NCBI GenBank assembly: GCA_900696645.1
Contig: CAADGV010000012.1
Location: 62,001-126,000, forward strand
Reading direction: 5' to 3'
Length of the DNA: 64,000 nucleotides
Source of the DNA: an uncultured Chlorobiota bacterium
GTDB taxonomy: Bacteria > Bacteroidota > Ignavibacteria > UBA10030 > UBA6906
Under the pieces are notes generated by a model. That model did not search any database and was not told the origin of the DNA. It was given only the letters and a program-made list of their open reading frames with translations. Positions 5,990-64,000 of the stretch are shown here, piece by piece (the stretch's first letter is position 1; each line of letters opens with the position of its first letter). The translations under genes were made by a program, and so were the position numbers.

Positions 5990-6071
5990 ATTCGTATTAT
6001 TCTCATCATGTGGTTTCTGCACGTTGTGCGCCGTTTTGCCCTGATTCGTCAACATATTGTGTCGCTTGCAC

Positions 6072-8408
6072 TCATCGAAACACTCGCAGAGATACTGATC
6101 GTGTGTCCAATTCAATGTGTGTTTCGTCCCCTTTACGCTCATACCGTATGGATGAGTCACCATCGGCAGAAACACTGTGAACAAAGACGGGCAAACGTAC
6201 AGACATCCGTTTCGGCGAAAATGTGTTGGTTCGTTCAAACACAACATGTATCTCGATCATCGATGCTGAACAACACACGCGCATGCCAATGACACCGCCT
6301 TGAACACACGCCTTCTCTGCGGAAAAGTCCTTCCCCGGCGAGAACCAAGATTCAGGCACGCCGGCAAGTAGGATCAGATTGGGACCGTCACGCGTTTCCT
6401 GTTCGTAGAGAAAGGCATCCCGCAATGCAAGGGCAATTTCTGCCGCGGCCCAACCATGATGCCCGTCTCCCATACAGCCGCCGAGCGTGAGAGGATGCAT
6501 AGCTTCCGGAAAATTCATCGTGGGTGAGGCGAATGAGCATACAGTGGAGAATATCTCCCAAAATCTTTTGCGGTTGCCACTGTACAGCCATGCATGCGCT
6601 ACCTGAAGAGTGAGGTAGGCGTTCATCCCGCTGTGAATGAAATCCTGGAAGAACATGCCATTTCTGAAAAAACTCTTGTGCAATCCTTCAAGAGTCTCAC
6701 GCAGTCCGTCATCATCTGGCTCGAACAACTGAAGAGGATACCACGCACACACGGAGCCGATCATACCGCAATCAATGCCGCGAAGCGGCCCGGCCGTTAT
6801 TGCTTGTGTTGACGATTTCTCCCGGGAAATCCGGATTGCTCTTTCAATATCCCTGCGATACTGATGCAGTACGCCGCGTGTGCGTGCCGACTCCTCGGAC
6901 AGACCAAGGTGATTGCATATCCCGGCATACGACTCAAGCCCGGCAAGCGACCAGAAGTTGTCCCAGAAATAATAGTCGGCAAGACCGAGATGTTCAGCAC
7001 TCAAACCCCTCGGCAACAGGCCATGGTAAGGCTCCGTGGTACTTCGCATCAGACGCTTTTTCTCAATCCACCTTGCCCCGCGCCGCAAGGATTCCAACTG
7101 CTCCTGAACCAGCGCAGTATCACCGGTGTAGCGCAGATGTTGCCATGCAAGCCACAACACCTGGCCGTTTGAGTCCCACTCGCCTTGTTGAGATCGGAAA
7201 TATCCTGACCGGTGTTGTTTGTTCCGAAAACCCTGCATAACACCTGCGGTGTGCTGTGAAAACCCGTATTTCTCCAGCGCCCAGAGCATATATGCGGCAT
7301 CACGAAACCAGAACTGATGATACGTAAAGGGCCCCGGCGTGATGGAGTGCCTGTCAACAAAAAGGAGAAGTGTTGATAAAGACGACTTAAGCAATGCATT
7401 CATGCGTCGATCGGGCGTTGAAAGCAAACACCCCTTTTTCAACGTACTCTCCCACACGTTTCCCGGATCATCAGAAAGACTTCTGTCCCATCGAACCGAC
7501 GGCAATTGCAGGGAACAACTCGCGTCAACGGATTTTGAAGCACGCGGAATGAGGTCCCCCTCGAATCCTATCGCCGCGTTCCCCAAACCGACGGTACAAT
7601 GCGCCTCTTGCCGATCTCTCACCACTAAATTGGCGATAAGACCGGCACAATCCCCTCCATCATAACCGGAGCATGCAACACGAACAGGTCTGTCGACAAA
7701 ATGAACTTTGACGTTGTTGTTTACCATGAGGTAGTTGTCACGTGCAACGTACTTAACATCATGAACAAGACCTATGCCTTCAGGGTTGAACGGTCGAACG
7801 GCAAAGAAGAGCCGAAAATATTTCGGCGTCGTGGAGTTGTTCCTTACCTCGGCCCGATGAACCAACTCCGTCTTCACGACAAACGTAGTCAGGATTAGAG
7901 CAATATCATCGATCTCGATTATTGTCTCAACGATAGGAACATCATTTACGAGTCGCTGACGAACACTACTCTGTTGCGAGGGGAAGTAGAGATTACCACC
8001 ATACTGCAACCATACATCCAGCGACCAACCATCACGGAACGGTGTTACCATTCCACGCGGGTCAACAATCGGCTCAACATCACAGTCCGGACTTCCCACT
8101 GCCGTCCAGTTTCGATGCGTGAGATTCATGGAGAGACCGAGATGAGAACGGGGGATGAACGCCGGAGAGGACGGGTCATATTGTTGATTCGCCCAATAGG
8201 GGAAGACCCAGTTTCGGATGCTTTGCAGTAGGGTGAAATTAAGAAGGCCGCGCGACAACTGAATCGTATTCAGGGGAATGAGTTCGGTAGGCAACGTGTC
8301 CTTATCGATGCCGCTTACCTCATTTGCCTTCTTAAACATCGTAATGGCCAACGCAGGGACATTCAGCAAGCGGGCTATCCACGCTGCACCGGTTTCGATT
8401 AATTTCAA
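6072..8408 (-). CDS. Large six-hairpin glycoside hydrolase (debranching-enzyme/GH15-like)
   Basis: About 778 residues with no signal peptide. The N-terminal third is beta-rich and the C-terminal half is an (alpha/alpha)6 barrel, with blocks such as HQFWFRDAAYMLWALEKYGF, GEWDSNGQVLWLAW and GCMGDGHHGWAAAE that resemble amylo-alpha-1,6-glucosidase and glucoamylase-like hydrolases acting on oligosaccharides. Acidic catalytic residues are probably in WFRDAAY, GEWDSNG and MNFPEAMHP, but I cannot assign them. The start is uncertain: TTG 8408 has GGAAG 5 nt upstream and keeps a coding-like stretch; ATG 8339 is the first ATG of the good region but lacks a ribosome site; an ATG at 8534 adds a stretch that does not look coding. 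It probably shares an operon with the HisN-like phosphatase. Confidence 0.68.
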   Translation of the reverse strand: MKLIETGAAWIARLLNVPALAITMFKKANEVSGIDKDTLPTELIPLNTIQLSRGLLNFTLLQSIRNWVFPYWANQQYDPSSPAFIPRSHLGLSMNLTHRNWTAVGSPDCDVEPIVDPRGMVTPFRDGWSLDVWLQYGGNLYFPSQQSSVRQRLVNDVPIVETIIEIDDIALILTTFVVKTELVHRAEVRNNSTTPKYFRLFFAVRPFNPEGIGLVHDVKYVARDNYLMVNNNVKVHFVDRPVRVACSGYDGGDCAGLIANLVVRDRQEAHCTVGLGNAAIGFEGDLIPRASKSVDASCSLQLPSVRWDRSLSDDPGNVWESTLKKGCLLSTPDRRMNALLKSSLSTLLLFVDRHSITPGPFTYHQFWFRDAAYMLWALEKYGFSQHTAGVMQGFRNKQHRSGYFRSQQGEWDSNGQVLWLAWQHLRYTGDTALVQEQLESLRRGARWIEKKRLMRSTTEPYHGLLPRGLSAEHLGLADYYFWDNFWSLAGLESYAGICNHLGLSEESARTRGVLHQYRRDIERAIRISREKSSTQAITAGPLRGIDCGMIGSVCAWYPLQLFEPDDDGLRETLEGLHKSFFRNGMFFQDFIHSGMNAYLTLQVAHAWLYSGNRKRFWEIFSTVCSFASPTMNFPEAMHPLTLGGCMGDGHHGWAAAEIALALRDAFLYEQETRDGPNLILLAGVPESWFSPGKDFSAEKACVQGGVIGMRVCCSASMIEIHVVFERTNTFSPKRMSVRLPVFVHSVSADGDSSIRYERKGDETHIELDTRSVSLRVFR

Positions 8409-8572
8409 ACGCGACTTCCGGATCTGGTAACATGTGACGTATTTTCGGCACGAATATCCTAAGAAGTTGAACGATAAACAACTTGCGAGAGGAGATTTAA
8501 CCGACACTTTACAAGATACTAACATACACATCACATTGCGTTGGTATCTTATCGCAGTATGAAGCCGGAGAA

Positions 8573-8686
8573 ATGGAAATTCACTTTGAAAGGGAAAAGA
8601 AAATGAAATCGGTAGCGTTCTTCTTTATCAGCGCTGTGATTCTGACGCTGCAGTTCTTTGTCGGACGTCGGCGAGTTGCGCATTGA
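8573..8686 (+). CDS. Possible single-helix microprotein overlapping a glycosyltransferase start
   Basis: A 37-codon frame (ATG 8573, GGAG just upstream; a second in-frame ATG at 8603 gives 27 residues and has AGGGA 9 nt upstream). The product has one hydrophobic helix (VAFFFISAVILTLQFFV) and a basic tail (GRRRVAH). Its stop TGA overlaps the TTG start of the next gene in TTGA. It may be a true microprotein or a coupling leader that loads ribosomes onto the glycosyltransferase message. No homologue is recognised. Confidence 0.35.
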   Translation: MEIHFEREKKMKSVAFFFISAVILTLQFFVGRRRVAH

Positions 8687-9891
8687 TTCGTCGCTCAATT
8701 CGCGTCGCATACTTCGCAGGCACCATGCGCCCCGAACATGACGGGGTGACTCGTGTGCTGTATCGACTCGTCAACTACCTGAATAACAACGATATTCGCC
8801 ACGTCTTCTTCTCTCCCATTGTCCCGTCATCCGAGTACGGTACCCAGTTCCATCGCGTGCCTTCGGTGACATTTCCACTGTACAAAGATTACCGTTTTGC
8901 ATTGCCGGGCACGCGGCATTTTGAGCAGGAATTGCAGGCATTCCGGCCAGACATTCTCCACATCAATAGTCCGTGCTCTCTCGGTTACGCAGCCGTGAAG
9001 TTTGCCGAACAGCATAACATCCCTGTCGTTGCAACGTACCACACTCACTTTGCAAGCTACGCGAAATACTACAACATCGCCGCACTTGAGGGACTGAGCT
9101 GGGCATATATCAGAAGACTGTATAACAGGTGCCAGAGAGTCTTTGTACCGTCACAGCCGATTCTTGATGAACTGCACACACACGGGCTTCGTACACTTGA
9201 GTTCCTGCCCCATGGTGTCGACGCAGAAACATTCAACCCCAAACAGAAGGATACGGCATGGAAGCAGACAATTGGAGCAGAAGGAAAGCGCGTTCTCCTT
9301 TTCGCCGGACGTCTTGTCTGGGAGAAGGATTTGAAAACGCTTGCCGAAGCGTATAGAATTCTGACAGCGAAGAGAAATGACGCCGTCTTTGTACTGGCCG
9401 GAGACGGGCCCGTGCGTGAAGAATTGAAACAACTCATGCCGGAAGCAATATTCCTCGGCCACCAATCAAAACAGGATTTGGCTGTTGCCTATGCGTCGAG
9501 TGATTTGTTCGTGTTCCCATCCACAACAGAGACATTCGGCAACGTTACGCTCGAAGCGATGGCATCAGGCCTGCCGCCCATTTGTGCCCGGGAGGGGGGA
9601 GCGTTCGGAATTATCCGCGATGGTTCGACAGGGCTTCTGGCAAAACCCCGATGCCCGACCGACTTTGTCCGCAACATCGAATTGCTGTTAGATGACGGGC
9701 GGCTGCGGGAGAGCGTCAGCAAACAAGCGTTTGCTTTCGCTCAACAGCAACAGTGGGAACATATCTTCAACAGGATGTTTGCAAGCTATCAGAACGTACT
9801 ACATGAATTCTCACAATTTCAAGAACGCAAGGGGAGACGCGGACATGGAGCGTCCGTTTACTATCGCCCATCTTTCGGATCTGCACATTAG
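8683..9891 (+). CDS. Glycosyltransferase family 4
   Basis: A 402-residue cytoplasmic retaining glycosyltransferase of the GT-B fold. The N-terminal domain begins RVAYFAGTMRPEHDGVTRVLYRLV, shown in part: a glycine-poor acceptor loop followed by THFASYAKYY. The C-terminal nucleotide-sugar domain has LLFAGRLVWEKDL, LAGDGPVREEL and the EX7E motif in TETFGNVTLEA. The closest look is to mannosyl- or glucosyltransferases that build glycolipids. The frame starts at TTG 8683, overlapping the stop of a microprotein frame; the first ATG, at 8725, would cut into the conserved N-terminus. It overlaps the next gene by 47 nt, so the two are cotranscribed. Confidence 0.85.
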   Translation: MIRRSIRVAYFAGTMRPEHDGVTRVLYRLVNYLNNNDIRHVFFSPIVPSSEYGTQFHRVPSVTFPLYKDYRFALPGTRHFEQELQAFRPDILHINSPCSLGYAAVKFAEQHNIPVVATYHTHFASYAKYYNIAALEGLSWAYIRRLYNRCQRVFVPSQPILDELHTHGLRTLEFLPHGVDAETFNPKQKDTAWKQTIGAEGKRVLLFAGRLVWEKDLKTLAEAYRILTAKRNDAVFVLAGDGPVREELKQLMPEAIFLGHQSKQDLAVAYASSDLFVFPSTTETFGNVTLEAMASGLPPICAREGGAFGIIRDGSTGLLAKPRCPTDFVRNIELLLDDGRLRESVSKQAFAFAQQQQWEHIFNRMFASYQNVLHEFSQFQERKGRRGHGASVYYRPSFGSAH

Positions 9892-56983: not shown

Positions 56984-57451
56984 TTATCGGCGTCGCGGGC
57001 GGGCTTGCTTCGCTTTTGACTTTGTCGTTTTCTTCTTCTTCGGTGCAGCCTTCTTCTTTGCGGCTTTCTTCCTCGCCGCCTTCTTCGGTTTCGGCGGCTC
57101 GCTTTTCACGATCCCGATCGTGTTGCCGTCCGGATCGCGGAACATCGCCATCGTCACCATACCCGGAATCTCCATCGGCGGCATAACAATGGTTCCACCG
57201 AGGCCAACCGCTTTGTTTAGGGTCTCCTGCAGGTCGGGAACTTCCGCGTAGAATGTAACAGGTGGGGCCGGCTGGCTCGGATCGTTTTGTCCGATGCCGC
57301 CTTGTGCGCCTTTCATGCTGCCTGTGCTGACAAGTCCGTAGTGCATCGGATTGTTCGCGTTGACACTCCAGCCGAACAACTTCGAGTAGAACTCCTGCAA
57401 CTGTTCGGCATTATTGGAATTGATTTCCCAGTGAACGACGGGTGCACCCAT
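56984..57451 (-). CDS. VOC-family protein with a histone H1-like basic tail
   Basis: A 155-residue protein. Residues 1-115 form a glyoxalase/VOC domain (VHWEINSNNAEQLQEFYSKLFGW; FRDPDGNTIGIV, both parts of the fold, the first shown in part). The last 35 residues are almost pure Lys, Ala, Arg and Pro (KPKKAARKKAAKKKAAPKKK, part), as in histone H1 or HupB tails. The tail is in the same frame and not the end of another gene. VOC proteins bind a metal and small substrates; such a tail usually binds DNA or RNA, or polyanions. The combination is unusual. The gene stands alone. Confidence 0.8.
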   Translation of the reverse strand: MGAPVVHWEINSNNAEQLQEFYSKLFGWSVNANNPMHYGLVSTGSMKGAQGGIGQNDPSQPAPPVTFYAEVPDLQETLNKAVGLGGTIVMPPMEIPGMVTMAMFRDPDGNTIGIVKSEPPKPKKAARKKAAKKKAAPKKKKTTKSKAKQARPRRR

Positions 57452-57645: not shown

Positions 57646-57675
57646 CCCAAAAGCCCCAATTGCTGGGCTTTTGGG
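57646..57675. terminator. 11-bp hairpin downstream of the TPR gene
   Basis: CCCAAAAGCCC/GGGCTTTTGGG with an 8-nt loop, 66 nt past the stop of the last gene of the minus-strand PqqD operon. On the minus strand it is followed by AATAACGG, a weak T tract. It probably ends the operon. Confidence 0.55.
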
Positions 57676-57740: not shown

Positions 57741-58376
57741 TTATTTCACAAGATTCAGCCCCTGCAGCGCCAGCGTATCTCCGGGACTGAGCATCAGCGC
57801 GTTGGTGAGAAGCATGCGCGCTTTCTGCCTGTCGCCTAAATAGTAATATGTCCATCCCAGTGAAAGGTTCGGCTCGTACTCAGCCGGATAATTACTCTGC
57901 GCCTTTTCAAGATGGCGCTTTGCCTCATCGTATTCGCCGTCGTTCAGAAGGATTTGTCCGAGGCGAAGATTGGCTGTAAAGTGCATCGGGTCGAGTTTCA
58001 GGATCGCCCGATACGTTGCCTGTACATTCTCCCAATCATTCAACGCCGAGAGCGGCAACGTGCGGCCGAGCAACGCTTCGATGCTCTTGTTGTTGGCAAT
58101 GGTGTTTGCCTGTGTATAGTACTTTTTCGACTCCTCGTAGTTCTTCGAAGAATAGGACAACCAGCCGAGACGAATGTTGATGAGATAGTCGTTCTTGTTC
58201 TCCTTATATACATCCAGCAAAGATTGAACGGCCTTTGGGTAGTTCCCTGCCATCTCGAATTTCAGCGATTGATGGAAGGCCTCAACCTTCCCGTTGTTTT
58301 GTGACAAGACTGTCCCAGCCAAAACCGCAATGATGATGGCGGCCAGCAACACGCTGAGTAGAGTGAAGTGTTTCAT
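57741..58376 (-). CDS. Exported TPR-repeat protein ending the PqqD/ATP-grasp operon
   Basis: A 211-residue protein: signal peptide residues 1-25 (LLAAIIIAVLAGTVLSQ), then about five TPR units (YPKAVQSLLDVYKENKNDYL; NYEESKKYYTQANTIANNKS; EYDEAKRHLEKAQSNYPAEY, in part). It starts with a 4-nt overlap with the urea-transporter fusion (58373-58376), so the two are coupled. A periplasmic scaffold for the M23 domain or the channel is a sensible guess. Confidence 0.8.
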   Translation of the reverse strand: MKHFTLLSVLLAAIIIAVLAGTVLSQNNGKVEAFHQSLKFEMAGNYPKAVQSLLDVYKENKNDYLINIRLGWLSYSSKNYEESKKYYTQANTIANNKSIEALLGRTLPLSALNDWENVQATYRAILKLDPMHFTANLRLGQILLNDGEYDEAKRHLEKAQSNYPAEYEPNLSLGWTYYYLGDRQKARMLLTNALMLSPGDTLALQGLNLVK

Positions 58377-60520
58377 TCTGATGTCTCCTCGTTTGTTATT
58401 CCCGTTGCAACAAATGCGCGATCCCCCGGTGCAGAGATCCTGATTTCCTTTATCATTCCTTCTGCATCGATTGTGAGAGTTCCGTCAAGCGTTTTCCGGT
58501 AGAACGCAAAAAGTCCCGTCCCTCTCAATTGAATACTGTTCGAGATTGTGTATTCACGACTTTCTTCCGATCGTTCCGCAAACCTGTATGATGCGCTGGC
58601 GTGCAGCTGCGGACTGAACACAAGCAAGAACTCGGAAAGATAACGTACAGCGCCGCCGACTGCCTTCGACACAGGATAGCGATCCGTCCAGACAAGGTTC
58701 GGCTCGTAGCACAGAGGTACCTGCACGGCCATCAGATAGAAATGATAGAGGGCCGAGCGTTTGTTTCCCGCAAAACCGGTCAGATAGAAAATCTTGCCAA
58801 CCATCGCGACGGATGCTGTCGCTCCGGCGGAGGATTCTATATACAGGCTGTTGAAGATATCCACCTTCACTTCCCACTCTTCGTTGAACGATTCACCATC
58901 AAATGAACAAGCAAACGAAAGCCTATCCCCCAACGTAAACTCGAACGCTCTCCTGATTATTTTGTGCGATTCGAGATTCCTCACAAGCATATTCTCTTCC
59001 GGATGATCGAATGTGTGCAGAACACATCCGCTTTCTGTTTTCTCTAAATAGTGGCCGATCGGATGTTCGAACGTTTTGTCTCCCAACTTGTCCGTCATCT
59101 GAAACTGGAAATGGAGATGTGGTGCCGGCGAACGTCCGCTGTTGCCGCACATCCCGACTGTGTCCCCCTTCTTCACCCGCTGCCCAACCACCAGCTTCGT
59201 TGCGTGCGGTTCAAGATGAGATACTGCCGAGAAGAGGTTGCTCCCGTGATCGATGATGACCGTGTTTCCCCAATTCGACTTCAGATTTACTGCGCCAACG
59301 TCGTTATTGGGAACACCATCAACAATCCGAACGACGGTACCTTCAAGAGGCGCTACCACGGGAAGTCTATTGCAGTAGTAATCGCTCAATGCCGCTCCGT
59401 CATTGGCATATTCCTTTCCTTCCTCATCCGTCACAACAAAATCCCACGCATGACGCCACTTGTCCTTGTGTGTGATGGAACCGTTATGCCCCTGCGACAC
59501 ACGCCACTCGCCGAAGAACGGCAACTCAGGAACAACGGCTTTGAACCGTTCAAAGCGCGACACGCGATTGTGATGGTAGTAGAAATTCTCCTCCGGTGTA
59601 CCGGGCTGGAAATAGAGGAGAACAAGATCGCTCTGTTCGCGCCGGAATTTCAGGCTGTATATTACCGACAGCACAACAAAGTTGAACGGGAGTACCAGCA
59701 CGGGTAATTGATAGCCGGACAGCACTTTGACGAAGAAACCCGTCAGTATCACAATAACGAGGGATGCAATGATAGAAAGAATGAACGATTTTGTCGACGG
59801 AATGATCAAATTTCCGCCGAGAGCAAACGCTGTGAGTATCGAATTGAATCCCGCAAAAATCAGAAACCACTCGCCCGCTTCCGGCATGATCAAGTCCACG
59901 AAGATCACGCTTGAGGCAAACCCGACAATGCTCAGCGTAAACATCACTCGCGACAGAAAGAGAAGGGCAACAGCAAAAACAATTCCCGATAACATGTCGG
60001 ATTGAAACACAATTAACCCAAGACTTCTGAAATATGTCTTGATTGTATCGGGTAGTGTGCCAAGAAATTCCGGTTCAGTAAACTCGAATGGCTTGCTTTC
60101 AATTCCGTTCAGATTGGTGAGAAAGATAATGAACACGTACAGCGTCAGCACAAACGGGAGACTCAACCCCGGCAGGTTGAACACGGCGGCAAGATGATGC
60201 TCAAGCACAGCCGAGACGAGAAATGTAATAATGATGAAGATGCCGATCAGGACGAGAAAGAACGGTGTCAGCTTGAAGTAGAATGCCGCGGCGGCACCGA
60301 AAAGAATGCCGTTGAATCCGTAAAAGCCGCTTCGGATCTTCGCCTCGTCAAATTTCAACACCGCCGCAGTCAGATTCGAAAGCACGACTCCCAACAGTGC
60401 AACAAGACCCAGCTCCGGCACAACAAACGTCGCCGCCAGCACTACCCCGCCGAACCATTTGCGGTTAGAGAAGAAAATCTGCGCGTAGCTATAGAGAATG
60501 GAGTCGAGAAGTAGATTCAT
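58373..60520 (-). CDS. Urea-transporter-like channel fused to an M23 peptidase domain
   Basis: A 715-residue fusion. Residues 1-~300 have about ten helices with the urea transporter signature (RSGFYGFNGILFGAAAAFYF; GLSLPFVLTLYVFIIF; DLIMPEAGEWFLIFAGFNSIL). Residues ~360-500 are a LytM/M23 zinc endopeptidase: HAWD (59441-59452), SHLEPHATKLVVGQRVKKGD and HLHF (59111-59119). The last 215 residues form an unrecognised beta-rich domain. M23 enzymes cut peptidoglycan cross-bridges; a urea transporter is a trimeric channel for urea or small amides. The start at ATG 60520 is 4 nt after the decarboxylase stop; a longer frame to 60577 overlaps that gene. Confidence 0.82.
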   Translation of the reverse strand: MNLLLDSILYSYAQIFFSNRKWFGGVVLAATFVVPELGLVALLGVVLSNLTAAVLKFDEAKIRSGFYGFNGILFGAAAAFYFKLTPFFLVLIGIFIIITFLVSAVLEHHLAAVFNLPGLSLPFVLTLYVFIIFLTNLNGIESKPFEFTEPEFLGTLPDTIKTYFRSLGLIVFQSDMLSGIVFAVALLFLSRVMFTLSIVGFASSVIFVDLIMPEAGEWFLIFAGFNSILTAFALGGNLIIPSTKSFILSIIASLVIVILTGFFVKVLSGYQLPVLVLPFNFVVLSVIYSLKFRREQSDLVLLYFQPGTPEENFYYHHNRVSRFERFKAVVPELPFFGEWRVSQGHNGSITHKDKWRHAWDFVVTDEEGKEYANDGAALSDYYCNRLPVVAPLEGTVVRIVDGVPNNDVGAVNLKSNWGNTVIIDHGSNLFSAVSHLEPHATKLVVGQRVKKGDTVGMCGNSGRSPAPHLHFQFQMTDKLGDKTFEHPIGHYLEKTESGCVLHTFDHPEENMLVRNLESHKIIRRAFEFTLGDRLSFACSFDGESFNEEWEVKVDIFNSLYIESSAGATASVAMVGKIFYLTGFAGNKRSALYHFYLMAVQVPLCYEPNLVWTDRYPVSKAVGGAVRYLSEFLLVFSPQLHASASYRFAERSEESREYTISNSIQLRGTGLFAFYRKTLDGTLTIDAEGMIKEIRISAPGDRAFVATGITNEETSE

Positions 60521-60524
60521 GATG

Positions 60525-61889
60525 TCAGCGGGATTTCTTCTCCTTGAGTCGGGCGGGCAGAACTTCCTGCTGCGCAAGATACTCCAGCGTTTCCGCTTTG
60601 CGAATCAACTCCACCGTGCCGTCTTCCATCACCATTACCACATTCGGTCGCATCGTGATGAACTGCATCCATTGCGTCATGTTGTATGCACCGACGTGGT
60701 TCAGTACGAGGCGGTCGCCCTGCTTGAGTGTCGGCAGAACAATCCCGTCGCGCAACACATCAATGTTCATGCACAACGGACCGTAGATGACGGCATCTTC
60801 TGTGTGTACGCTCGGCTGCTGCGCCGGTTGAACCTTGTGCTTGTACCAAAAGCTGGTGAACATCAGGTTCACACCCGCATCGACAATGATTGCTCTGCGT
60901 CCGGTTGAGAGTCGCTTGTTTGCAATAACAGTTGTAATGAGATACCCCGCGTTGTCAATGAGTGCCCTCCCGGTCTCAAGAATAAGCGTCGGCAGATCTT
61001 CCGGTTTAATGGAAAGCTGGAACAATCCGGAGGCAATTGCATCGGCATATTGCTCAAGACTCGGCACGACTTCTTCCGCAGGCAGGTATTGCCCGATTAG
61101 TGTATTCTGGGATGCAAACCCTCCGCCAACGTCAATGTAATCCAGCGTGATGCTGAATTCATCGTGCATGCTTTTCGCAAGGCCGGCAAGTTTGCTCGCG
61201 GCCACGCGGTATGCCTCGGCACTCATCATGTACGTGCCGATATGTGTGTGCAGCCCGATCAGCGATAGTCGCGGATTGGCGACAATGCGTTTGATGGCTT
61301 GCCACGCCTCGCCGTTCTCATAATTGAAACCGAACCGATCCCACAACGGATACACGCCGACATCCATGTTGACGCGGATGGCAACGCGGGCCTTCAGTGT
61401 TTCCGTATCCGTAAGCTCAACGATGTGATACAACTCGTCGAAGTGATCAATATGAATCATCGCACCTTCGCGTATTGCCGTACGGAGCGCCTCGATGCTC
61501 TTTTCCGGTCCGTTGAAGATGATATGTTCGCCCGGAATACCCAACGCCCGCGCCTTCCGGTATTCAAATTCGGACACAACCTCCGCCCACGAACCTTCCT
61601 GATGAAACACGGAACAAACGGCATCGAGGTAATTCGTTTTATACGACCAGGCGAATTGAACGCGGGGATACCGGTTTTTGAATACACGATAGGCATTCCG
61701 CTGATTCTGCCTGATGGTTTTCTCGGAAAGCACAAACAGAGGAGAGCCGAATTTCCCGGCGAGATCCTTGATCAGGACGCCGTCGATATTGTCGCGAACG
61801 GACGTTGACGGCCCGCTGCCGAATTTGTTCATGATGCCCGACTGATGTTTCGTCACAACGGGACGTTCGTATGTTTTCTTTTCTGCCAT
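60525..61889 (-). CDS. Divergent PLP-dependent decarboxylase (LysA/ODC fold) with a leader-like N-terminus
   Basis: A 454-residue alanine-racemase-fold decarboxylase. The PLP lysine is in FAWSYKTNY; THIGTY, DVGGGFAS, ETGRALIDNAG and GPLCMNID follow. Diaminopimelate and ornithine decarboxylases have CESxD or CDGLD at that point, so the substrate pocket differs, and the C-terminal block is GAYNMTQWMQFITMRP. The first 36 residues (61782-61889) have no counterpart in usual LysA, which starts near GVLIKDLAGKFGSPLFVLSE. This extension reads KKTYERPVV...HQSGIMNKFG, resembling the YxxP...G leader motif read by PqqD/RRE domains. It is 2 nt from the ATP-grasp gene. The substrate is unknown. Confidence 0.82.
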   Translation of the reverse strand: MAEKKTYERPVVTKHQSGIMNKFGSGPSTSVRDNIDGVLIKDLAGKFGSPLFVLSEKTIRQNQRNAYRVFKNRYPRVQFAWSYKTNYLDAVCSVFHQEGSWAEVVSEFEYRKARALGIPGEHIIFNGPEKSIEALRTAIREGAMIHIDHFDELYHIVELTDTETLKARVAIRVNMDVGVYPLWDRFGFNYENGEAWQAIKRIVANPRLSLIGLHTHIGTYMMSAEAYRVAASKLAGLAKSMHDEFSITLDYIDVGGGFASQNTLIGQYLPAEEVVPSLEQYADAIASGLFQLSIKPEDLPTLILETGRALIDNAGYLITTVIANKRLSTGRRAIIVDAGVNLMFTSFWYKHKVQPAQQPSVHTEDAVIYGPLCMNIDVLRDGIVLPTLKQGDRLVLNHVGAYNMTQWMQFITMRPNVVMVMEDGTVELIRKAETLEYLAQQEVLPARLKEKKSR

Positions 61890-61891
61890 GA

Positions 61892-62926
61892 CTATTTCTC
61901 TCCTGCAACCACAAGTTTTTCAAATTCTTTCATGTTGGTGATGTAATCCCACGAATAGCGGATGAAAATCGTACCGATCGTATATGTCTTGAACTGCGGC
62001 ACCTGCTCTCCGCGCGCAAGCTTCACAAGTGAATACGGGAGATTTTGCCCGGCACCGGTTGCCAGATGAACCCATGCCGGGAATCGGGGATTGATCTCCA
62101 ACAAAAAATACTCACCCGTCTCTTTGGATTTGATGAACTCCAACTCAAGTCCGCTTTGCCATTTCAACGCTTTGACAATGTCGGCGGCAAGACTGATCAG
62201 TGCTTTGTCATCCACTGTTACGCCGGCCCATCCTTTTCCTTTGTCTGTGATGTACAGCTTGCGCATCGGCACAGCGCCGATGGATGCCCCGCTGCCGTCG
62301 CCGAGCGCGACAACGTTGAATTCATCTCCCGTCACATGCTCTTGTATGATGATAGGAAGTCCCCATTTGAGCCGCAGTTTGTCGAATGCCGCGTGAACAT
62401 CGTTGAAGTTGTGGGCGATGTACGCGTCGTAAAAAATTCCCTTCACAACCACGGGGTAGTTGAACTGATTCGGGATTTTGTGAAGATCCTGCAGCGATGA
62501 CACAAGCGTGTTTTTCGGCACCTTGAAGCTATGCACTGTACAGAAATCGAACAGCTTGTCCTTGGCGCGCAAGTTCAGTTGGTCGAACGTCGGCAGAAAT
62601 GTGTGAATGCCGAGACTTCTCAGCCGCTCGCTCAGCTTGATGAATCCGTACAACTCTGAATCAAGCGTGGGAATGATGACATCTAACTTCTCCCTTGAGT
62701 GGATGTACGCAATCCGCTCAAACAACGGTTCCAATCCGCTCGACGGATAGGGAATGAGATAGCTTTTGTCGGCAATGTTCTCCATGTAGATGCCGGGGTC
62801 GAGCGAGTCGTACGACAACCCGATGATGCGTCCGGAAAACTCAGCTGCCGCACGCAGGCTCCGTATGACCGGCACGCCGGGTCCGGGATTGTCGGTGGCG
62901 TTCAGCCCTGTAACGGCGATGTTCAT
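61892..62926 (-). CDS. ATP-grasp ligase
   Basis: A 344-residue carboxylate-amine ligase-type ATP-grasp enzyme. N-terminal pre-ATP-grasp domain (IAVTGLNATDNPGPGVPVIRS), then NYPVVVKGIFYDAYIAH (ATP-binding lysine), IIIQEHVTGDEFNVVALGD, and LLEINPRFPAWVHLATGAG, the metal-binding end. It resembles the CarB/biotin carboxylase and PEP-amino-acid ligase side of the family. It would activate a carboxylate with ATP and join it to an amine. The start overlaps the PqqD-like gene by 4 nt, and the two are likely partners: PqqD presents a peptide. Confidence 0.85.
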   Translation of the reverse strand: MNIAVTGLNATDNPGPGVPVIRSLRAAAEFSGRIIGLSYDSLDPGIYMENIADKSYLIPYPSSGLEPLFERIAYIHSREKLDVIIPTLDSELYGFIKLSERLRSLGIHTFLPTFDQLNLRAKDKLFDFCTVHSFKVPKNTLVSSLQDLHKIPNQFNYPVVVKGIFYDAYIAHNFNDVHAAFDKLRLKWGLPIIIQEHVTGDEFNVVALGDGSGASIGAVPMRKLYITDKGKGWAGVTVDDKALISLAADIVKALKWQSGLELEFIKSKETGEYFLLEINPRFPAWVHLATGAGQNLPYSLVKLARGEQVPQFKTYTIGTIFIRYSWDYITNMKEFEKLVVAGEK

Positions 62927-63177
62927 TTTGTACGAATCAGTTTGAAGGATGAAAGTTGATTGATAAAGTCATCGAAGTCGCGGACAAACGTTGCCCGTTC
63001 AACATCATACAATTCAAGGATTTTCTGCTCAATGGCTTCACGAGTGTCGCCGCCCTGAAGCATCTTGAAAATGTCTTTGCCGATTTCATTCAGCGTGAAT
63101 GTCTCGCCCGTTGAAGCGAGGAAGAGAAATCCTGAATCGCTGACAGCGAGACTTTCAGGAACGAGATATGTGTTCAT
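62923..63177 (-). CDS. Stand-alone PqqD-like peptide-binding (RRE) protein
   Basis: An 84-residue PqqD-family winged-helix protein: VPESLAVSDSGFLFLASTGE, then FTLNEIGKDIFKMLQGG, DTREAIEQKILELYDVE, and FVRDFDDFINQLSSFKLI. PqqD-like domains (RiPP recognition elements) bind leader peptides and present them to modifying enzymes. It is the first gene of the operon with AAAGG 9 nt before its ATG. No radical SAM enzyme or obvious short precursor peptide is visible in the window, which sets this apart from PQQ and sactipeptide loci. Confidence 0.86.
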   Translation of the reverse strand: MNTYLVPESLAVSDSGFLFLASTGETFTLNEIGKDIFKMLQGGDTREAIEQKILELYDVERATFVRDFDDFINQLSSFKLIRTK

Positions 63178-63232
63178 CGTGCATTACCTTTGCAACTGTT
63201 GTGTGTGGGATAAATTTTCAAGACCTTGCATT

Positions 63233-64000
63233 ATGCTTACGTCAGTTCGCTTCTTTCTTTCCGCCGGGAATCGTGATCAGACAGCCGACCTTCTGAAGGG
63301 GCTTGCAGTCGTGTTCATGATTCTGGTTCATCTTGTCGAACTCTTTGCCGCACCGGCAATTTATGACAGTATTGCGGGCCGCGTTGCGTTGTTTCTCGGC
63401 GGACCGCCCGCCGCCCCTGTGTTTATGGCCGTAATGGGATACTTTCTTGCCTCATCACGAAAATCTTCGACTCAACATATTCGACGCGGAGTCTCCCTTT
63501 TTCTCGGCGGAATTGCGCTGAACATCGGACTGAATTTCAATCTTCTCCTCTCCATCCGTTCGGGCCGCTTTGATCTTGACCCGCTTCCGTACATCTTCGG
63601 TGCCGATATTTTGCCGCTCGCCGGATTGAGCGTGATGGCTTTTGCCCTTCTTCGACCCCTCTTCCGGCGATCATGGATTGCGTATCTCATTCCGGCCTTC
63701 GCCGTCGCCGCTGTAACTCCCCTACTTCACAACATGGAAACGTCCGATCCGTTTTTGAAGTACATTGTGCCGTTCTTGTGGGGACAATCAAGCTGGTCAT
63801 ACTTCCCGCTGTTTCCCTGGCTTGCGTACCCGTTGCTCGGATACGCGTACAGAATAGCGAGCGAAAGCCTCACACTACATTCACGAATGACGCCACCAAT
63901 CCGCTTACTGCTTCTTGTCTTGTGTACTTCCGGTCTCCTGATCTTTTCAGAGACTGCATATGCGATTTCGGTTGATCTGCCCCGCTACTATCATCACTCA
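63233..64000 (+). CDS. Membrane acyltransferase-like protein (DUF1624/HGSNAT type), partial
   Basis: A frame from ATG 63233 that stays open to the window end (256 codons, no stop). The product has about seven helices so far; it begins with RDQTADLLKGLAVVFMILVH (histidine in the first helix), which resembles the start of heparan-alpha-glucosaminide N-acetyltransferase and DUF1624 proteins. These move an acetyl or acyl group across a membrane. It diverges from the PqqD operon by 55 nt. The stretch TACCTTTG at 63185-63192 fits the Bacteroidetes -7 box TAnnTTTG and might be its promoter. It may belong to the same pathway. Confidence 0.66.
   Translation, partial: MLTSVRFFLSAGNRDQTADLLKGLAVVFMILVHLVELFAAPAIYDSIAGRVALFLGGPPAAPVFMAVMGYFLASSRKSSTQHIRRGVSLFLGGIALNIGLNFNLLLSIRSGRFDLDPLPYIFGADILPLAGLSVMAFALLRPLFRRSWIAYLIPAFAVAAVTPLLHNMETSDPFLKYIVPFLWGQSSWSYFPLFPWLAYPLLGYAYRIASESLTLHSRMTPPIRLLLLVLCTSGLLIFSETAYAISVDLPRYYHHS

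Follow-up and report, generated by a model that had tools for sequence, protein, structure and literature searches.

A five-gene unit encodes a PqqD-like protein, by sequence a lasso-type RRE, that very probably binds the pyridoxal phosphate (PLP) decarboxylase of the same unit (DC) rather than a free peptide, since DC carries a leader-like tag at its N-terminus, the groove of the RRE matches this tag, and the two covary. We hold the contact between RRE and tag, as read from these sequence comparisons, with high confidence.

The window, i.e., the whole 64-kb stretch of DNA that was analysed, is part of a 4.2-Mb genome. A check of its open reading frames placed the minus-strand unit at the positions, and with the overlaps and gaps, that a sequence-only reading of the window had claimed, and Pfam agreed with the domain identity that it had given to each of the five genes (Table 1). 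The hairpin 3' of the last gene is strong and a possible transcription end, and it was absent from the output of a terminator-type scan that requires a T run.

Table 1. Features of the five-gene unit, in window coordinates
Feature	Position	Strand	Description and basis
PqqD-like protein, lasso-type RRE by sequence	62923..63177	-	84 aa; Pfam PF05402 2e-12
ATP-grasp ligase	61892..62926	-	344 aa; 4-nt overlap with PqqD-like gene; Pfam ATPgrasp_Ter 2e-11
PLP decarboxylase (DC)	60525..61889	-	454 aa; 2-nt gap from ATP-grasp; Pfam Orn_Arg_deC_N 3e-32, Orn_DAP_Arg_deC 2e-15
Leader-like tag, DC residues 7-24, YERPVVTKHQSGIMNKFG	61818..61871	-	Conservation, RRE covariation
UT-M23 protein	58373..60520 (counted from ATG)	-	715 aa; 4-nt gap from DC
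Urea-transporter (UT) fold, UT-M23 residues 6-288	59657..60505	-	PF03253 2e-51
M23/LytM metallopeptidase domain, UT-M23 residues about 335-490	59051..59518	-	Peptidase_M23 4e-15
C-terminal beta-rich domain, UT-M23 residues 491-715	58376..59050	-	No Pfam match
TPR protein with N-terminal signal sequence	57741..58376	-	211 aa; TPR_2 1e-17; 4-nt overlap with UT-M23
Perfect 11-bp hairpin 3' of the TPR gene	57646..57675	-	Possible transcription end

We searched gene neighbourhoods in Ignavibacteria and related genomes, as the sequence-only reading had suggested, and found the same five families together. When a class sample of 149 genomes was searched with the ATP-grasp protein, 24 showed a close homologue, which the PqqD-like and DC genes adjoin in nearly all cases, with the start of UT-M23 coming next in most loci. 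A profile search of species genomes returned 574 relatives, the nearest named ones being Ignavibacteria metagenome-assembled genomes, a lineage to which we accordingly assign the host. In the 80 named Bacteroidota/Ignavibacteria loci of these that were examined, the order PqqD, ATP-grasp, DC, UT-M23, (TPR-barrel), TPR is kept with few exceptions, as judged where the contig was long enough. The PqqD-like protein was detected by profile in 80/80 of these loci, and the TPR gene lies beside the set in most long ones. In one genome (G102), the PqqD-like gene is found ~2 kb upstream of the ATP-grasp gene, and adjacency is lost. In a phylum sample, the ATP-grasp protein and the gene set are present in 33 of 395 genomes (about 8%). 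Since both the adjacency of PqqD, ATP-grasp, and DC and the order of the five families are kept across loci, the gene set is not the chance cluster that, by the sequence-only reading's own criterion, would have refuted its proposal. A link to phage defence was also considered and dropped, since PADLOC gave no convincing match.

When the PqqD-like proteins were compared as a profile with solved structures, the best matches were TbiB1 (6e-11) and TfuB1 (1e-8), followed by PbaB1 and LppB, and the lasso RREs outscored true PqqD. In LppB, the YxxP leader is held by residues N33, D70, and F74, the first two of which favour its Tyr (PMC13381572). A gap-free alignment to LppB (9x8z) puts N30, D67, and F71 of the window protein at these three positions. 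Over the 80 loci, N30 is found in 80/80 and F71 in 79/80, while residue 67 is mostly D (60/80) or N (10 loci); about one RRE in four has another residue at the position of LppB D70, and each such change is compatible with the tag residue. On the strength of its profile and groove residues, we class the PqqD-like protein as a lasso-type RRE, which supports the proposal that it is a peptide binder.

The first 24 residues of DC are approximately as conserved as the catalytic body, from which a variable linker of ~10 residues separates them. They contain a motif, [YF]-x2-P-x-[IVL]-x9-K-[FYIM]-[GA], that is conserved in 102 loci, with Y/F7, P10, I/V/L12, and K22 each in 102/102 and G24 in 101/102, and zero indels between Y7 and G24 in 63 aligned rows. 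Since the AlphaFold2 pLDDT is 53-59 for DC residues 1-30 and mostly about 90 beyond, the tag, which is predicted to be disordered in the DC monomer, probably lies outside the folded enzyme. An early hint as to its nature was a weak match (E 0.08) of its N-terminal residues to DUF5972, which we take to be a lasso-peptide leader family. Lasso leaders have Tyr at -17, Pro at -14, and Leu at -12, followed by a core Gly at +1 (PMC10368454). When Y7 is set to -17, P10 falls at -14, residue 12 at -12, K22 at -2, and G24 at +1. From this lasso-equal spacing, we infer that a second protein may act at or near K22-F23-G24 while the RRE holds the tag.

By analogy with LppB, RRE residue 67 should hydrogen-bond the tag Tyr, and the two positions covary. 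In 122/122 loci, a tag Tyr is paired with D/N at RRE 67, and a tag Phe with Y/S/A/H. A first count gave 79/79 loci (Tyr with D/N, Phe with Y/S/A) and a larger set 101/101, while 21 further loci, which were fetched afterwards and had no part in setting up the test, provided an independent check with 21/21 (16 Tyr-Asp, 4 Phe-Tyr, and 1 Phe-His). Among 877 RRE, ATP-grasp, and DC columns, RRE column 67 predicts the tag Y/F best, in a ranking that leaves out the tag residue itself, with one leave-one-out error versus five for the next column. On a tree built without the trait columns, the tag Y/F changes about three times, two of these on well-supported branches, and RRE residue 67 changes three times at the same places. 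With about three changes, a sign test cannot reach significance, and the covariation therefore draws its support from having been predicted beforehand from structure, from the column ranking, and from the loci outside the original sample. Among the top 100 tag-linked columns, 40 are ATP-grasp columns versus 20.5% expected and UT-M23 columns are under-represented, both figures being confounded by descent. Covariation was also tried as a way of finding the reader of K22 and G24 but was abandoned because both positions are invariant, and the correlations of other tag positions are confounded by descent.

The sequence-only reading had envisaged a peptide- or amino-acid-modifying pathway, and a separate precursor was sought. 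In the window's own genome, the tag profile gave a convincing score for DC alone; in the class sample, every clear match fell on the DC gene of an operon carrier; and in the phylum sample of 395, the strong matches are exactly the 33 ATP-grasp-positive genomes. Two weak extra matches in the phylum sample (G339 and G300) are out of frame or antisense and were rejected as free precursors, being due to chance. No ORF other than DC bears the tag in any genome searched (own, class, and phylum), and a separate precursor peptide, with a leader and a core of its own, was detected by neither motif nor profile in the loci, the genome itself, or the class and phylum samples. A pathway with a separate precursor thus gave way to one in which DC itself bears the leader-like motif: the set resembles an RRE-leader system yet falls outside the RiPP definition, which calls for a separate precursor.

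DC is a PLP enzyme of the alanine-racemase fold that retains the catalytic residues K84, H216, GGG255-257, E305, R308, C373, and Y402. It had been read as a plain amino-acid decarboxylase, and this part of the sequence-only reading did not stand: DC scores below the curated LysA cut-off (233 of 297.9 bits) and a true LysA (472 bits) is encoded elsewhere in the genome, so that DC as LysA was rejected, and its closest solved relative, by sequence and by fold, is the N-citrylornithine decarboxylase FigC/FslC (TM 0.89 by target, with a C-M-x-x-D loop as in FigC). Unlike FigC/FslC and their relatives SbnH and AcsE, DC, which is about 30% identical to FigC/FslC and below the curated FslC cut-off (237 of 500 bits), is tagged and partnered by an ATP-grasp protein instead of an NIS synthetase. 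FigC, SbnH, AcsE, MccE, and BtrK form a clade with LysA and D-ODC outside polyamine metabolism, and the substrates of these specialised members are amino acids in conjugated or carrier-bound form (PMC7857480). The ATP-grasp protein is CPSase/PRK12767-like with a PylC-like N-terminal domain and invariant residues K162, E202, E263, E277, N279, and R281; its best families are PRK12767/CPSase-like, and it lies outside the known graspetide ligase families.

We lean towards a mechanism in which the RRE docks DC through its tag, linking it to the ATP-grasp ligase, after which a small ligated and decarboxylated conjugate would be exported via the UT-fold channel and partners in the outer membrane. The RRE would, very likely, bind the DC tag as lasso RREs bind YxxPx[L/I/V] leaders. 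Thus bound, it could plausibly bring DC to the ligase, which would conjugate an amino acid through an amide or ester bond; from this conjugate, DC would strip the alpha-carboxylate, as the analogous FigC/SbnH/AcsE and BtrK suggest. We give even chances to this product chemistry, i.e., ligation followed by decarboxylation to a small conjugate, which is modelled on these relatives. We note beside such RRE-mediated coupling that the ATP-grasp gene overlaps the RRE gene.

What counts against docking is that K22 and G24 are outside the stretch that an RRE usually contacts and call for an explanation of their own. As an alternative, the DC tail might itself be a covalent substrate, the RRE presenting K22 for the ATP-grasp ligase to load an amino acid by its side-chain carboxylate, after which DC would decarboxylate the load on its own tail, as on a carrier such as BtrI or LysW, and a cytosolic M23 would release it. 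The conservation of K22 (102/102) and G24 (101/102) at a fixed distance of 17 residues from the RRE motif, the same as from lasso leader to processing site, speaks for this, as does BtrK, a structural relative of DC that decarboxylates carrier-bound glutamate. The excess of ATP-grasp columns among the tag-linked ones would fit as well but comes without a phylogeny correction, and a load held by an amide bond would have to be freed from its carrier in a step of its own, which is here guessed. We know of no described class of biosynthesis with an RRE-guided self-loading enzyme and consider this alternative unlikely. In butirosin synthesis, the loading step is done by the ATP-grasp BtrJ, and BtrK, of the same clade as DC, acts on an amino acid carried by BtrI. 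Unlike there, an acyl carrier protein is absent among the operon genes, and RRE and tag are found here.

Alternatively, the DC N-terminus could be a genuine RiPP precursor that is joined to an enzyme, its modified tail peptide being cut by M23 and exported. To our knowledge, no RRE is known from borosins, whose core, unlike the DC tag, is C-terminal and autocatalytically methylated. These nonetheless provide a precedent, since in OphMA the RiPP-type substrate and the enzyme are also part of one polypeptide (PMC7878506). The leader-like motif with a near-invariant Gly at lasso +1 and the operon's own M23, with its invariant site, would agree with a fused precursor. However, G24 is followed by the variable 10-residue linker into the enzyme fold, with no obvious core, and the UT-M23 columns are under-represented among the tag-linked ones. 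We regard a fused precursor as improbable.

Docking of DC by its tag has its nearest parallel in the lasso and LPP pairs (TbiB1, TfuB1/FusB1, and LppB-LppA), with which it has in common the RRE subgroup, the YxxPx[I/V] motif, and the spacing to an invariant downstream site. The lasso recognition motif YxxPx[L/V/I/F/A] is thus encountered here but carried by DC: unlike in these pairs, the leader is built into a 450-aa decarboxylase and no free precursor was found in our searches, and unlike in lasso clusters, a B2 transglutaminase-like peptidase and a C cyclase are absent among the five operon genes. The open-access literature, which is what our search covered to the exclusion of subscription papers, gave no description of this gene set, in agreement with the sequence-only reading that knew of no such system. 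RREs serve as beacons for RiPP clusters and are assumed to read free precursor peptides. If our reading is true, an RRE reads a catalytic enzyme in 33 of the 395 Bacteroidota sample genomes, which would widen the role of RRE-leader recognition, offer an explanation for a group of orphan PqqD-like proteins, and hint at an as yet uncharacterised product of environmental bacteria that is directed to the envelope. This suggests that a known peptide-tailoring trick has been reused to steer an enzyme in a biosynthesis-and-export pathway, and the covariation between the tag Y/F and residue 67 offers a precise mutational test.

The proposal that the system reaches the envelope is supported. UT-M23 has a UT fold with two repeats, which aligns to the bacterial urea channel dvUT (3k3f) with a TM-score of 0.82 by target but misses the yut equivalog cut-off. 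Unlike in dvUT, this fold is part of a fusion protein that continues into M23 and ends in a beta domain, and the hosts are mostly without urease. In the phylum sample, UT is found in 43 genomes, mostly as a ~700-aa fusion frame in operon carriers and as a ~300-aa protein elsewhere. The H-D-H-HxH site of M23 is intact, with H351, D360, H435, H468, and H470 invariant in 46 sequences. In mammalian UT proteins, both termini are cytosolic. Given the UT fold and the conserved basic flank (R293 in 46/46) that follows the last UT helix, M23 would more probably be cytosolic than periplasmic, which would disfavour the role of peptidoglycan peptidase that it had been given. A disulfide between the conserved C383 and C458 was dropped as a sign of a periplasmic M23 because the two Cys vary independently.

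Both the UT and DC families include members that act in amine or urea metabolism, which might be all that the operon does, the tag merely aiding assembly of the DC dimer. However, urease is absent in 19 of the 20 carriers tested, which argues against a nutritional urea role for UT, LysA is separate with DC under its cut-off, and the tag is predicted to be disordered in the monomer and tracks an RRE groove residue. We regard ordinary metabolism, too, as improbable. Least probable is a siderophore-like system akin to rhizoferrin synthesis, with ATP-grasp replacing the NIS synthetase, which the proximity of DC to FigC/FslC would suggest but the missed FslC cut-off and the absence of an NIS synthetase or TonB receptor among the recurring neighbour families examined speak against.

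For the product of tag-docked DC, we consider export by way of the UT-fold channel and of partners in the outer membrane about as probable as not, the direction of transport being our reading of the parts. The small product might pass the inner membrane by this channel, with the attached M23 perhaps trimming or releasing it on the cytosolic side, and might exit through the periplasmic TPR protein and outer-membrane beta-barrel partners. Candidates for the latter are a protein of about 457 aa (c5) that is encoded between UT-M23 and TPR in 48 Bacteroidota loci, with a TPR-like start and a probable outer-membrane beta-barrel, and one of about 275 aa (c9), a probable barrel whose gene is found nearby, usually after TPR, in 14 Ignavibacteria loci. 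The window's own genome has c9, together with an FG-GAP protein that has a type IX secretion tail, just past the window end.

Groove residue 67 of the PqqD-like RRE, which covaries with residue 7 of the leader-like N-terminal tag of the decarboxylase (residues 7-24), shows an apparent second pairing, with tag residue 21. Across loci L059-L105, tag residue 21 is mostly Asp when RRE residue 67 is Asn and mostly Asn when it is Asp, an apparent Asp/Asn swap. Descent alone may account for this pattern.

Among the Bacteroidota loci (within L052-L109), two regulator families recur upstream of the PqqD gene, an AraC-type (c6; 33 loci) and a LytTR-type (c7; 18 loci), which suggests that operon expression is controlled.

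The genes flanking the operon in its own genome, including those on L149, the stretch running past the window end, are listed below. By eye, the divergent membrane protein looks to be of the acyltransferase/DUF1624-like type, and its gene separates the operon from the upstream FG-GAP and barrel genes, both of which are related to operon-adjoining genes of other Ignavibacteria. Downstream of the operon, the glyoxalase-type protein carries a long, Lys/Arg-rich, histone-H1-like C-terminal tail.

Genes flanking the operon in its own genome
Feature	Window position	L149 position	Strand	Remark
Glyoxalase/bleomycin-resistance-type protein	56984-57451		-	
Multi-pass membrane protein, divergent	63065-64000	6066-7307 (continuation)	+	
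FG-GAP protein with type IX secretion tail		7282-8925	-	just past window end
Probable outer-membrane barrel		8955-9812	-	just past window end

In genome G113 the operon genes are listed twice, at opposite ends of its sole contig (C1:1134-4947 and 3732415-3736363), with an incomplete UT match at one contig end, and the contig is therefore probably a circular one left unclosed. Three loci, all from metagenome bins, have records titled Bifidobacterium breve (L058), Chryseobacterium gleum (L067) and Chitinophaga pinensis (L097); of these, at least L058 appears to be a Bacteroidota contig under the wrong name.
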